Below, in pieces: positions 23,958 to 33,359 of a stretch of DNA of 36,111 bases. The notes under the pieces are model-generated. The model did not search any database. It worked only from the letters and a program-made list of their open reading frames with translations, and had not been told where the DNA came from. The DNA comes from Methanobrevibacter sp. (GTDB taxonomy: Archaea; Methanobacteriota; Methanobacteria; Methanobacteriales; Methanobacteriaceae). The translations under genes were made by a program, and so were the position numbers. The stretch covers positions 1 to 36,111 of the forward strand of contig NZ_JAUNXI010000017.1 of NCBI RefSeq assembly GCF_030539875.1. Reading direction: 5' to 3'. How positions within the stretch are numbered: position 1 is the first letter of the stretch; every line of letters begins with the position of its first letter.

Positions 23958-25643
23958 TCAGAAGTCAATATTTAAATCATCCATCATTTTATGAATTTTT
24001 TTATTCAGTTTTTCAATATTATAATCAATTTCCTCTTTTTCATGAACTAACTGACTTAACTGAATAAATTCGCCTTCAAAAGTATCAACATATCTGGAAA
24101 CAGATAAATTGAAATCATTATCCTCAATTTCAGATATTGAAATCAGATTAGAGTATTTATCTATAACTTTACGATTTTTACAAACATCAAGGAGTTTTTT
24201 AAGACTTTCATCATCCAATATAAGATTTCTATTAATTACACCGCGAGTTAAATTAGGGGATTTTTTGGTTTTGAAATTTTTTGACAAGTCTATGAATAAA
24301 ATATCATCATTTCCACGATTTTTCCTGAAAATGCAAATGATTTCAGGCCTTGAAGACCTTCCATAAACCTCCGGAATGTTTATAATCGCATCAATGTAAT
24401 TATTTTCATAAGTCAGATATTTTCTAAGTGTTTCAAGTGAATTTTTAAATAAGAAACTTTGAGAGACAACAACAGCCATAATCCCGTTATTTTTTAAGGT
24501 ATTTATCAAATTAAGCAAAAACAGATATTCACTGTCAATTAATGATTCATATTCTCCTCTAAATTCAACAACCAAATCATTTCCAATATCTAACTTATCA
24601 ACCAGGTTTTCCAATGCAAAGTTTAATTCTGAATTCTCTAAAAATGAATTTTCATCAACACCTAACTTGTTGCTTAAGATATCTTCAATTTGTCTGCGTT
24701 TGCTTTTTTTAGAAAATTCAAGGTTCTGACTTTGGTTAATATATCTTGATCTCCATCCGCCAACAGGAGGCAATTTTGAGATAATCGCATCAAAGGAGAT
24801 TCCATCAACATCACTGTACTCCATGGCGTTTCCATATTCGACAAATATCTCATCCAAATCGCAAAAAGACATGAAAAATTTAACTAAACTGCAGCAGTAA
24901 GTCAGTTTATCACTACATTTTCCGAATAAAGTATAATATGCATTTTCATCCTTATTATTCAATTTTATCAATGAAGACCCGTCGTTTAAAAACGGATTGT
25001 AAACATTTCCTGAATGATTTGCCTGTGAAACAATTCCTGTTAACAGTTCATTAATAAAATCAGAATCATAATCGATTCTTAAGATTGATTTGCACAATAA
25101 ATCAAAAACCTCAACACAAGGCATTTTGGATTCATTAATGTCTAATTTTGAGATGGTATGAACCATATCTTTAATGAGCAAACTGTATTCGCTGTCAGAT
25201 TGAAGTTCAAACAGGTTACTTTCTCTTTTAACATTATCAAATATGAAATTAAAGTATTTTTCATAATTGGAATCAGAATCAAAATCCACATTATCAACAA
25301 ATAAGCTGTAAAATTCATTGATGAAAAAATCATCCTGAAGTTTGGTGCTGATTACCTCGTCAATAAATGCATTTGGGTTATTAATGAAAAATCCTAACAT
25401 TTGATGTGCATCACGTCTGACCGCATCGACATAATCTGGATTACCATATAACTCATCAAAAGTAATTTCTTTATCTTCAATTGTGCCTAAAAGATATTGC
25501 TTAAGTGAATCTGAAGAATATTTATATAAAAATGTGAAAATTAAAAGATAAGAAACTTCCTTTGAGTTTCCAGCCATTCTTAACCTATTTCTAAGACTTC
25601 TAAAAAGGGTGGAATTTGTTGAGCGTCCATGTCTTTGAAGCAT
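23958..25643 (-). CDS. HsdM-like protein with degenerate methyltransferase motifs
   Basis: A 561-residue protein with the layout of type I restriction-modification M subunits: an N-terminal helical domain, a Rossmann core and a C-terminal helical tail that would contact the S subunit. The later landmarks are intact (SEYLFLLNLINTLKNNGIMA, VVVSQSFLFKNSLETLRKYL, IINIPEVYGRSSRPEIICIF). Motif I (DPxCGSG) is replaced by NPFLNDGSS at about 216-224, and the catalytic NPPF/Y by SKLPP at about 290, so it should not methylate adenine. ATG at 25643 overlaps the S gene stop by one base (TAATG) after GGAGGG. No HsdR gene is visible. Confidence 0.75.
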   Translation of the reverse strand: MLQRHGRSTNSTLFRSLRNRLRMAGNSKEVSYLLIFTFLYKYSSDSLKQYLLGTIEDKEITFDELYGNPDYVDAVRRDAHQMLGFFINNPNAFIDEVISTKLQDDFFINEFYSLFVDNVDFDSDSNYEKYFNFIFDNVKRESNLFELQSDSEYSLLIKDMVHTISKLDINESKMPCVEVFDLLCKSILRIDYDSDFINELLTGIVSQANHSGNVYNPFLNDGSSLIKLNNKDENAYYTLFGKCSDKLTYCCSLVKFFMSFCDLDEIFVEYGNAMEYSDVDGISFDAIISKLPPVGGWRSRYINQSQNLEFSKKSKRRQIEDILSNKLGVDENSFLENSELNFALENLVDKLDIGNDLVVEFRGEYESLIDSEYLFLLNLINTLKNNGIMAVVVSQSFLFKNSLETLRKYLTYENNYIDAIINIPEVYGRSSRPEIICIFRKNRGNDDILFIDLSKNFKTKKSPNLTRGVINRNLILDDESLKKLLDVCKNRKVIDKYSNLISISEIEDNDFNLSVSRYVDTFEGEFIQLSQLVHEKEEIDYNIEKLNKKIHKMMDDLNIDF

Positions 25644-26203
25644 TATTCTCCCTCCCAAATTTTATTTAAGATTCCCTCTTTTAATTTTCTGTCATACTCA
25701 ACCACCTTCAGGTCCTGAGCTATTTTATCGTTGATTGTGTTTAAAAGTTCGCCGTATTTGATTTGAGTTTCCAAATCAGGAGCAGCCAATCCTATTTCTT
25801 TAATTTCTTTAATTGAAACATGGGAAATCCTTTCTATGCTCCCAAGTTCATGCAGTTGTTTTTTAACATGAGCATTGGTTAATAGATGTGCAATAAATAC
25901 AGGATCATAATCTTCATTAAGTCTTATAATGGCTATTCTGTCACTTATAATCAGTCCTGACTGTGCAACTTCCACCACATCAAACGGATGGGACATTTTC
26001 ATCAATACGTCCCCCGGCTTTGAGAAAAATCTTTCTTTAATATTCTCTTTTAGTTTGATTTCCTCAAAGTCAGATAATAGACCGTCACTTTTAATTGACC
26101 TTTGGACAACAACATTGCATTTAACACCATCGTCATCAAGATATCGCCTGTAGGAAATGCCAGAATAGATTTCTGCAATATCCTTCAATTTTACTTTTTG
26201 CAT
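25643..26203 (-). CDS. single-TRD type I specificity (HsdS-like) protein
   Basis: A 186-residue half-size specificity subunit with one target recognition domain and one conserved helix. MQKVKLKDIAEIYSGISYRR is the typical S-subunit opening, and the sequence ends in the dimerising helix LLNTINDKIAQDLKVVEYDR and KLKEGILNKIWEGE. Normal HsdS has two such units of about 400 residues, so this one must dimerise to read a palindromic target. It precedes and overlaps the HsdM-like gene. DNA binding is likely; methylation or cleavage are not supported by the neighbours. Confidence 0.8.
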   Translation of the reverse strand: MQKVKLKDIAEIYSGISYRRYLDDDGVKCNVVVQRSIKSDGLLSDFEEIKLKENIKERFFSKPGDVLMKMSHPFDVVEVAQSGLIISDRIAIIRLNEDYDPVFIAHLLTNAHVKKQLHELGSIERISHVSIKEIKEIGLAAPDLETQIKYGELLNTINDKIAQDLKVVEYDRKLKEGILNKIWEGE

Positions 26204-26270: not shown

Positions 26271-26338
26271 CCTTCATCATAATATGATGTGGAAGGAGGC
26301 AGCATAGGAATGCTTAATATTAATTGCCCCACATCATA
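26271..26338. promoter_or_regulatory. mutually exclusive hairpins in intergenic region
   Basis: CATCATA and TATGATG (26275-26289) form a small hairpin, and TATGATGTGG (26283-26292) also pairs perfectly over 10 bp with CCACATCATA (26329-26338). The two structures share the middle strand and cannot coexist. A further AGCAT/ATGCT hairpin lies in the larger loop. It resembles an attenuator, small RNA or remnant of a mobile repeat between hsdS and the 26448 gene. Confidence 0.4.
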
Positions 26339-26447
26339 GACTGATTTTAAGGAAAAGTTGGTTGAAATAAGCATTTTGCCCAATCTATACTATGAATTTA
26401 GCAAGATCCTGAATTCATTGCCTGCATGTTGTTTGTGGCATTTACAT

Positions 26448-26804
26448 CTATTGATATAATCCATTTATATCATCAAGCAAAGGCATTTCCTCATTAATGT
26501 TATTGGGATTTATTTTTTCAGCGGCCATCCCTCCAATAACACCTACACTTTGAATGTTTTCTTTTAAAACAGCTGTAGATGTAATCCCTACACCCTGAGA
26601 AGATAAAACAAACAAATCAAGGAAGGTTTCATCTTCTCCAACTATGAATGCAGGTTCAATGGCTTCGGATGATTTGGTCTGGACCTTAATTAAGATATGT
26701 TTTGTTTCATTATCTCCTTCAAGCCCGATTTCATGTCTGATGGTTTTGTCTAAATCTTTAACTTTTTCGCTCCAATTAATAGAATTAGTTTGGTAATCTG
26801 TCAT
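26448..26804 (-). CDS. uncharacterised small acidic protein
   Basis: A 118-residue protein. I take ATG at 26804 (MTDYQTNSINWSEKVKDL), preceded by GTGAT; the open frame extends to 26852 without a binding site. It has KTIRHEIGLEGDNETKHILI and a hydrophobic, glycine-rich middle IQSVGVIGGMAAEKINPNN, with a strand GEDETFLDLFVLSSQGVG. No membrane helix or signal is clear. No family recognised; neighbours give no hint. Confidence 0.55.
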   Translation of the reverse strand: MTDYQTNSINWSEKVKDLDKTIRHEIGLEGDNETKHILIKVQTKSSEAIEPAFIVGEDETFLDLFVLSSQGVGITSTAVLKENIQSVGVIGGMAAEKINPNNINEEMPLLDDINGLYQ

Positions 26805-26910
26805 ATTATCACATACTATTTTTTTAAGTCCACTTTTGTGGAAGGCATTCAACTGTCTTTTTTCAGAATATAATTACAAATTTAGTGTATTTTTACAGCA
26901 AATACTAATG

Positions 26911-26926
26911 AGTTGTAATTACAACT
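26911..26926. promoter_or_regulatory. 16-bp perfect palindrome with TATA boxes
   Basis: AGTTGTAATTACAACT is perfectly palindromic and runs into ACAACTTATATA on the plus strand; TTTATATATT can serve as a TATA box on the minus strand next to it. The nearest minus-strand gene starts at 26804. The rest of 26853-27150 is AT-rich and holds no gene that I can see. Confidence 0.45.
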
Positions 26927-27155
26927 TATATACAATAATATATAAACTTTATGATTATAAATGTATTTCTTACATAAATACAATCATATAGAAGTAATTA
27001 TTAATTATTAATTAACTGATATATAAAGTTTTTGTATTTTTTAAAAAAAGACAAAATTATTCAAAGGTGAGGCAGCACAAAAATTTTTCTAAAAATAGAT
27101 TAAAACAAAATTAACATGATGAAAACAAAGCACTCAAAATTAAAGGAAAAAAAGT

Positions 27156-27188: not shown

Positions 27189-27731
27189 TTAATCATCGTC
27201 TTCAACAATAACCAGTCTTTCATTTTCTTCATCAACTTCCATAACAATAGGATCTTCTTCAAGGGCACCTGGATCCTTTTCTATGCATTCATTGATTTTG
27301 GATTGGATTGTTCCAATATCTTCAGTATCGATTAAATCAATAATTTCTAACTGTTGTTGGAATCTTTCAATACCTTCCAATGGAATATTTTCAACAAATG
27401 GAATAGCTCCTGTTGCTCCAATAATTTTCTTTTTATCAGGATCTGCACCGTTATCATGCAAAGCTTGTATACTCTGACCGGTAATATGGCCCTGTACTTC
27501 AGCACCGGATAAAATCAAGAACCTGATGTTTGGATTTGAAATTAAATTTGCAATAACTTTCTCAATACCTAAGTTTTCTGTTTTACACGGACCTGCAATA
27601 GCTGCTCCAGAAAGGTCAGCCTCAATGTGGGAAGCCAATGTTGTTACTGCAACAGGGCTTTCAGGGTCCCCGACTACGTAATCTCCACTGATTACTGGCC
27701 AGCCGTCTGCAGGTTCTTTTTTATCTACCAT
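27189..27731 (-). CDS. MtrA-like corrinoid protein lacking the membrane anchor
   Basis: A 180-residue paralogue of tetrahydromethanopterin S-methyltransferase subunit A, whose corrinoid carries the methyl group from H4MPT to coenzyme M. The N-terminal cytoplasmic domain is well conserved: [40 protein letters not shown] and [18 protein letters not shown], whose His82 corresponds to the cobalt-coordinating His84 of characterised MtrA. True MtrA has about 240 residues and a C-terminal helix; here the protein ends in an acidic [13 protein letters not shown] with no hydrophobic stretch, so it is soluble. No other mtr genes are nearby. AGGAGG and a TATATATAAAA box support expression. Confidence 0.85.
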
Positions 27732-32097: not shown

Positions 32098-33359
32098 TTT
32101 CAACCTTGTAGAAACCATGTCAAAATTTGAGTGAATATCGTTATTTTCCTTATTTTTGTTAAATAATTGATTTTTATCCGTTGTTTTTAATTTTGATATG
32201 TTTTTATTGTTTTTATTTTACACTTGAATTTTTACTTTCGCAAAAAAATTTTTCGTAAATACTTGGATTTGTGTTTAAAGCAATTTTGTTGATTTAATTT
32301 CATTACACTTGAAATTTTACTTCCTATTCTTTGAAAAAACAAATAATAATTAATGAATAGTAGAATGAATAATAATTATTAATATATACCTCCAAATAAA
32401 ATATTCTCCATATTACTATTTGACTTCTAGACATTGAAACCTTTTGGATTTAAAATTAATGGGAAAAACAGAAATAAAAAAACCATTTAATAGGTCAAAA
32501 TCAAAATATGTTACTTGATTTTGTTGAATTAACATTTAACTATGCAAAATGGATATTTCCAAACTATTCCTGTGATTATATTAATCATATTTATAATCAA
32601 CCTCAGCTTTTCACTATTTTGGCAATAAAAACCTATATGAAAACCACATATCGTGAAATAATTGAAATTTTGGAGGCATCTGACAAAATAACCAAATTTT
32701 TAAAGCTTACAAAGCTTCCATACAATACGACAATCCAGAAATTCTTTGTAAGGATGTCTGACACAAAATTAAAAGATTTAAACAAATTAATCTTAAGTAT
32801 GCATACAATAAATTGTGAATTAGTGGCCATGGATGGAACTGGACACACAAGTGACTATGCAGACCATTATTACGCAAAAATACGGGGCAAATGCCAAAAA
32901 AGCTACATTAAAAACCATATTGCCATCGGCGTCGACACAAAAATGATTCTAAATTACGCAGAAATAGAGGTCCAAAATACGATACACAATTTGCAATAGC
33001 TTCAATAAGACAATTAAAACCATATAAACCACACTACATACCAGCAGACAAAGCATACGATACAGAACCAATAAGAAAATGCATTAATGAAGAAATAGAG
33101 GCATTCGACCAAATACCCTTAAAAACACGAGCAACACAGGACATTACAGACTAAACAGTGCAACAATCTTCTGGCACGACGTATATGTACGAAGAATGAA
33201 TGTAGAAAGTGTAATATCTGTAATAAAAAAAGATTCAATGGAGGAAACTACAGTAGAAACACAAAACTCCAAAATAAAGAAACAAAACTCAAAGACGTAT
33301 TATATAACATTTACAGAGCAATTCAAGTATTTTAATAGAGGGTTTCTACAAGGTTGAAA
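32098..33359 (+). mobile_element. insertion sequence with 19-bp terminal inverted repeats
   Basis: TTTCAACCTTGTAGAAACC at 32098-32116 and its exact reverse complement at 33341-33359 delimit a 1262-bp element carrying one transposase gene. No obvious target-site duplication is seen. About 340 bp of AT-rich non-coding sequence precede the transposase, including a short repeated ACACTTGAA motif (near 32220 and 32305). Confidence 0.85.
32459..33335 (+). pseudogene. DDE transposase (IS5/IS4-like), frameshifted
   Basis: It starts ATG 32459 (MGKTEIKKPFNRSKSKYVT), shifts frame into LDFVELTFNYAKWIFPNYSC, and continues with TTYREIIEILEASDKI. The DDE domain shows VAMDGTGHTSDYADHYYAKI (first Asp), then after a frameshift near 32965 RGPKYDTQFAIASIRQ and YIPADKAYDTEPIRKC (second Asp), then another shift near 33130 to GHYRLNSATIFW and NVESVISVIKKRFNGG (Glu), and one near 33228. 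At least four frameshifts show that the copy is inactive. Confidence 0.8.

Follow-up and report, generated by a model that had tools for sequence, protein, structure and literature searches.

A reversed balance of constraint in a type I-like S-M gene pair of Methanobrevibacter suggests a domesticated, non-methylating DNA-recognition complex

The window analyzed here, a 36,111-nucleotide stretch of Methanobrevibacter sp. DNA (contig NZ_JAUNXI010000017.1), carries on its minus strand a pair of genes related to the specificity (S) and modification (M) subunits of type I restriction-modification (RM) systems, preceded by a small gene, c115:

25643-26203, minus strand: S-like gene, half-size type I specificity subunit with one TRD (intact ORF, 186 aa)
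Within the S-like protein, minus strand: TRD at residues ~1-142 and conserved helix at 144-185 (AlphaFold2, 33-member alignment)
25641-25645, minus strand: TAATG stop/start overlap between S and M (ORF ends)
23958-25643, minus strand: M-like gene, HsdM scaffold without methyltransferase motifs (intact ORF, 561 aa from the ATG at 25643)
26448-26804, minus strand: c115, conserved small protein of 118 aa, co-directional upstream neighbor of S-M

A longer version of the M-like frame, with 566 aa and opening at a TTG at 25658, was chosen in the first-pass annotation of this DNA. The same annotation described a half-size S with a single TRD, an M-like subunit that keeps the HsdM scaffold without motif I and NPPF/Y, a TAATG overlap joining two intact frames and the absence of an R subunit, and its description of the locus holds. 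S consists of one TRD and one helix, as supported by profile matches and the AlphaFold2 model; motif X is gone from M in addition to the other two motifs; both frames are open in the window; and neither the window nor the conserved neighborhood of the pair contains an R gene, with a separate HsdR encoded elsewhere in the same genome, on contig C12. In 19 of the 19 genomes first examined, the junction is likewise tight, with S directly upstream of M and their ends overlapping or touching, and equivalent junctions are found in nearly all of 32 further loci.

The pair is surrounded in the window by gfcR, hemC, an oxidoreductase gene and an mtrA paralogue, in the order mtrA paralogue - c115 - (c143) - S - M, after which gfcR is convergent. 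The MtrA paralogue (27189-27731, minus strand), which is short (180 aa versus a 238-position model), is likely a stand-alone second mtrA; an ORF at 32508-32999 (plus strand) partly matches IS5-family transposases (NCBIfam E 3e-13) and is probably a transposase fragment. In 14 loci (e.g. L031 9528-9959), c115 and S are separated by c143 (~130-143 aa), which the window lacks. c115 adjoins S-M in every carrier examined and is also kept in two genomes without the pair, G009 and G024; it is genus-specific, has a mean identity of 79% that makes it more conserved than S, ends in a conserved C-terminus with LYQ, and has no Pfam, NCBIfam or PADLOC match. Between M and gfcR, 22 of 33 loci contain genes for what appear, by sequence, to be ARPP1 (DUF6569) and HIRAN proteins; in L033 (12225-13578), the ARPP1 (DUF6569)-like and HIRAN-like genes are adjacent to each other and convergent to M. 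These were rejected as partners of S-M, since ARPP1 is also found elsewhere in genomes without the pair. The other insertions at the locus are ordinary genes.

Upstream of c115, its leader (window 26805-26945, minus strand) contains an archaeal TATA-like box followed by up to three inverted repeats, which are present in most loci with a sequence that changes between them. Despite these visible repeats, a structured leader RNA was rejected: neither a consensus structure nor covariation was found in the alignment made, there is no Rfam match, and single-sequence z-scores range from -0.2 to -2.5. Inverted repeats also occur between c115 and S (window 26276-26345, L034 9953-9977, L040 9435-9459, L041 9924-9952); in some loci these mostly have a 7-nt spacer, as in ATGATGTGG-N7-CCACATCAT and ATTAGTTTTGG-N7-CCAAAACTAAT, and the window has the same TGATGTGG arms with 36 nt between them. 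No operator with a fixed gap could be seen around S-M, the repeat arms differing between clades, and an operator near S was rejected, as repeats with varying arms and, in the window, a 36-nt spacer are more hairpin-like.

AlphaFold2 models of the two proteins have the HsdM and HsdS folds of type I RM systems. The S-like model (pLDDT 92.5) is closest in the PDB to the half-S-like protein Esub1 (8vsr, E 6e-11, TM 0.77; also 8vsq), followed by BsaXI S, PacII S and the type I S subunit 1yf2; at the level of profiles, S reaches 21.4 bits with Methylase_S, just under the 22-bit cut-off, and is matched by PADLOC Specificity_I over its single TRD (3e-17), so that the two TRDs per chain of a type I HsdS are not present. 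The M-like model (pLDDT 82.5) best matches HsdM 3lkd (E 5e-19; TM 0.62 by query and 0.73 by target length), then PacII M and EcoR124 M. Pfam N6_Mtase matches M with its C-terminal half only (profile positions 161-307 of 311, E 8e-28), and the NCBIfam hsdM score of 62.8 bits is far under the cut-off of 242.75. Both S and M are acidic (pI 5.8 and 4.8, respectively), a property that on its own does not point to DNA binding.

Comparison with the canonical HsdM proteins of its genus shows that the M family has other residues throughout in place of EFYTP (motif X), DPTCGSG (motif I) and NPPF (motif IV). The altered positions map to the window as follows:

24975-25001, minus strand: former motif I (SAM loop), YNPFLNDGS for YDPTCGSGS, residues 215-223 (alignment)
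24918-24920, minus strand: Lys242, at the Gln position of motif II (GQELN) (alignment)
24768-24779, minus strand: former motif IV, S-K-L-P for the A-N-P-P of ANPPF, residues 289-292 (alignment)
24564-24758, minus strand: family-specific insertion, residues ~296-360 (alignment and AlphaFold2 model)

At the former motif I, the family pattern [YF][DN]PFxx[DN][GA] takes the place of DPxxGxG: the first Gly of the SAM loop is changed to K, N or R in 29/33 members, F218 is found in 32/33 and position 221 is always D or N (33/33). Position 242 is Lys in every aligned member (33/33), and the acidic residue of motif II is partly kept (E/D in 20/33). The former motif IV reads S-[KR]-[ILVF]-P, mostly S-[KR]-[IV]-P, which places K or R at the position of the catalytic Asn (290) in 31/33 members and keeps P292 in 32/33; NPP is found at this site in 0/33 rows, the sole NPP string being elsewhere, at residue 22 of L047. 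The insertion that follows (60-66 aa, mostly helical) is absent from canonical HsdM and includes two near-invariant residues, Q306 and E309, in the 33-member alignment.

This comparison covered 19 genomes and 33 alignment rows, which are overlapping sets, and no member with intact motifs was found among those aligned. A recent loss of the motifs, which the first-pass annotation had considered, is rejected on this ground; the substitutions are instead conserved among homologues, and the loss is, as judged from the aligned sequences, old and family-wide. Because the replacement residues are themselves conserved (K242, F218, D221, [KR]290), the pocket of M appears to have been rebuilt rather than simply eroded, and these new residues argue for a putative repurposing of M as opposed to drift.

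Of 152 genomes surveyed from the phylum, 40 carry M, always as a single copy, and all 40 belong to one genus; none of these M frames is interrupted by a stop codon. A first homologue survey of 61 genomes, ranging from the window's own genome through its genus and order to more distant ones, identified full-length M relatives in 19, all within the genus, and the same 19 have a close S relative. A scan of named genome contigs yielded 33 loci, 32 titled Methanobrevibacter and one belonging to an uncultured bacterium MAG; the S-M order is the same in 32 further named loci, and one more locus ends at a contig edge inside S. This recurrence of the pair is far beyond chance. Distances between S sequences correlate with those between M sequences (0.84), and both correlate with flanking-gene distances (S 0.66, M 0.81).

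In a tree built on gfcR, the oxidoreductase gene and hemC, with 27 carriers and eight non-carriers (three inside and five outside the carrier clade), 27/27 carriers form one clade, in which the non-carriers G009, G024 and G028 are nested, the five others lying outside. The simplest history of S-M would thus consist of one origin, vertical descent and at least three losses, and the losses in G009, G024 and G028 show that the pair is dispensable. At the empty site of G009, ~520 bp between c115 and gfcR hold no convincing remnants of S or M; at that of G024, c115 directly abuts ARPP1. A mobile, viral or defence-island origin was rejected, given the vertical locus, its housekeeping neighbors and the lack of S-M relatives in viral contigs by tblastn; as a phage relative of S, there is one weak partial match (32% over 63% of S).

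The three closest pairs have dN/dS values of 0.12, 0.10 and 0.06 for M and of 0.10, 0.09 and 0.08 for S, which indicates purifying selection on both genes. Averaged over all pairs in the family, S sequences are 67.4% identical and M sequences 47.1%, opposite to the canonical proteins of the genus, whose HsdM has a mean identity of 69.5% (n=7) and whose half-S share 22-34%, with one close pair at 77% (n=4); the relation of conserved M to variable S that is typical of type I systems is therefore reversed in the S-M pair. S is similarly constant in its TRD (68%) and helix (66%), and more conserved than the neighboring ARPP1. Within M, region 361-455 (65%) and the C-terminus (57%) are followed by the catalytic core (39%) and the N-terminal helices (38%), with values of 79%, 74%, 69% and 59% for the same regions of canonical HsdM. 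The first-pass annotation had placed the pair under selection from the absence of frameshifts only; intact ORFs throughout the family, low dN/dS values, the joint inheritance of the two genes, vertical descent and the lack of any intact-motif homologue among the aligned members now support that view, in spite of a dead methyltransferase. Its further proposal, that sequence recognition is used for something other than methylation, is also favored by the sequence data, since the TRD is unusually constant across species.

On balance, we lean towards reading the pair as a domesticated, non-methylating "Type 1 1/2"-like M/S complex that occupies a single constant DNA site, probably a palindrome, where it would act as a regulator or roadblock. 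No methyl transfer is expected of M, because it has lost both its SAM loop and the catalytic NPP[FYW]. By analogy with related enzymes we infer a 2M+2S assembly, DNA binding, a palindromic target and a regulatory role: two half-S and two M subunits would come together as in M.AhdI or EcoR124INT, with an M-S interface taken from homology, to bind a symmetric bipartite DNA sequence, and the M subunits would serve as a DNA-clamping and assembly scaffold. Devoid of SAM binding and catalysis, such a complex would bind and stay, acting as a regulator, roadblock or recruiter, and it would probably serve a fixed set of chromosomal targets instead of diversifying restriction, since the TRD is nearly constant across the carrier clade. 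Retention of the dead M together with S would follow if the pair resembles EcoKI, in which neither S nor M binds DNA alone (PMC3874165). A fuller picture, which we consider rather less likely, is that of a genus-specific archaeal regulator in which a pseudo-methyltransferase with a rebuilt, ligand-responsive pocket is combined with a half-S dimer of frozen specificity to control fixed chromosomal sites.

The conserved residues located exactly at the lost motifs (K242, F218, D/N221, S289, [KR]290 and P292), together with the Q306 and E309 of the family-specific insertion, could also mean that the former SAM/catalytic pocket binds another ligand or supports another chemistry, M being a new sensor or enzyme that is gated or localized by S-directed DNA binding. 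This is conceivable but doubtful, for the core evolves faster than region 361-455 and the C-terminal part, and no catalytic set of polar residues is recognizable in M.

Most RM enzymes act selfishly or in defence, and they normally diversify rapidly in specificity. A role in defence or quality control, in which S-M would mark or sense foreign DNA and recruit an effector (c115 or a protein encoded elsewhere), would agree with the RM ancestry of the pair, its patchy presence through loss and the constant company of c115 in the carriers examined. It is nonetheless improbable: with gfcR, hemC and the mtrA paralogue as neighbors, the locus is not a defence island; c115, besides being unmatched in PADLOC, persists without S-M in G009 and G024; and an arms race would be expected to diversify the TRD, not to hold it constant.

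The window's own genome also encodes, on contig C12 (L064 60-5665), an HsdR of 907 aa, a half-S of 184 aa and an HsdM of 514 aa with intact motifs, so that this gene order, half-S and then HsdM, is ordinary for the genus and could plausibly have given rise to the dead pair; the canonical locus of G009 (L065 5623-13966) has a half-S plus several HsdS genes, then a gene for a 331-aa recombinase-like protein. HsdR and intact HsdM accompany S-M in carriers G000, G002, G005 and G018, some of which also have a half-S; this would fit a role of S-M in modulating the resident type I system through mixed complexes, with S as a decoy or M as a dominant negative. We consider such a role quite unlikely, however, as no HsdR match was found in the nearly complete carriers G006, G007, G014 and G017 (93-96%) and no intact HsdM-type match in G006, G014 and G017, the only HsdM-type match of G007 being one diverged N6-MTase, and the dead S is only ~25-32% identical to the canonical half-S of the genus. 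The existence of carriers that lack both HsdR and intact HsdM also led us to reject, for the family, a dependence on either protein in trans.

That S-M still methylates DNA through a non-canonical active site, as the retained MTase fold of M and the acidic motif II residue of 20 members might allow, is very improbable in view of the Lys/Arg that replaces the catalytic Asn, the substituted first Gly of the SAM loop and the additional loss of motif X. Finally, a decaying type I remnant kept by chance, with which the three losses inside the carrier clade and the missing R gene would agree, is scarcely credible for a pair whose M is open in 40/40 carriers, whose dN/dS is ~0.06-0.12 in the closest pairs and whose S is more conserved than ARPP1.

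A dead enzymatic half and a frozen reading half, maintained across many gut-archaeal species, are what would be expected of an RM module turned into a core DNA-binding complex, and it is in this reversed constraint on reader versus writer that the main interest of the pair lies. An interpretation that earlier concerned one locus is hereby extended to a clade-wide family, in whose genomes N6_Mtase and Methylase_S annotations do not imply methylation. To our knowledge, few regulators have been characterized in methanogens of guts and rumens. Eukaryotes possess pseudo-methyltransferase scaffolds (METTL14-like), and a domesticated S-M complex, if real, would be their prokaryotic counterpart in gut and rumen methanogens.

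As for known systems, our literature search found no account of an HsdM that is inactive across a whole family and accompanied by a half-S. The PADLOC MADS models include weak matches of M to mad2 (2e-11) and of S to mad5 (7e-11), both outscored by generic type I M and S models; the mad1-mad8 gene set is not present, and no other defence gene was recognized near S-M, where the recognized flanks are housekeeping genes. Closer at hand, the canonical type I loci of the genus (G000:C12, G009:C2) share with the pair the order of half-S then HsdM and homologous subunits (M ~18-39% identical by region, S ~25-32%), but differ by their intact EFYTP, DPTCGSG and NPPF, linked HsdR and divergent half-S TRDs, that of G009 further having full-length HsdS genes and the recombinase-like gene. 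Esub1 (8vsq; 8vsr with Prx), which at 184-196 residues in the models is close to S in length, is the best structural match of the S-like protein, a likeness by fold alone at ~16% sequence identity.

EcoR124INT, a half-S type I enzyme whose unlinked TRDs assemble and recognize GAAN7TTC (PMC3320862), differs from S-M in being engineered and active. The natural systems to which the pair can best be compared are the Type 1 1/2 methyltransferases, such as M.AhdI, M.BsaBI and M.PshAI (Loenen et al. 2013, PMC3874165), of which M.AhdI assembles as 2M+2S (PMC3874165). Unlike these active gamma-class enzymes with motif I and NPP[YFW], S-M lacks both motifs in every member checked and has no linked restriction enzyme; like them, it has separate, adjacent genes for M and a single-TRD S, and would be expected to form a 2M+2S complex on a symmetric bipartite target.
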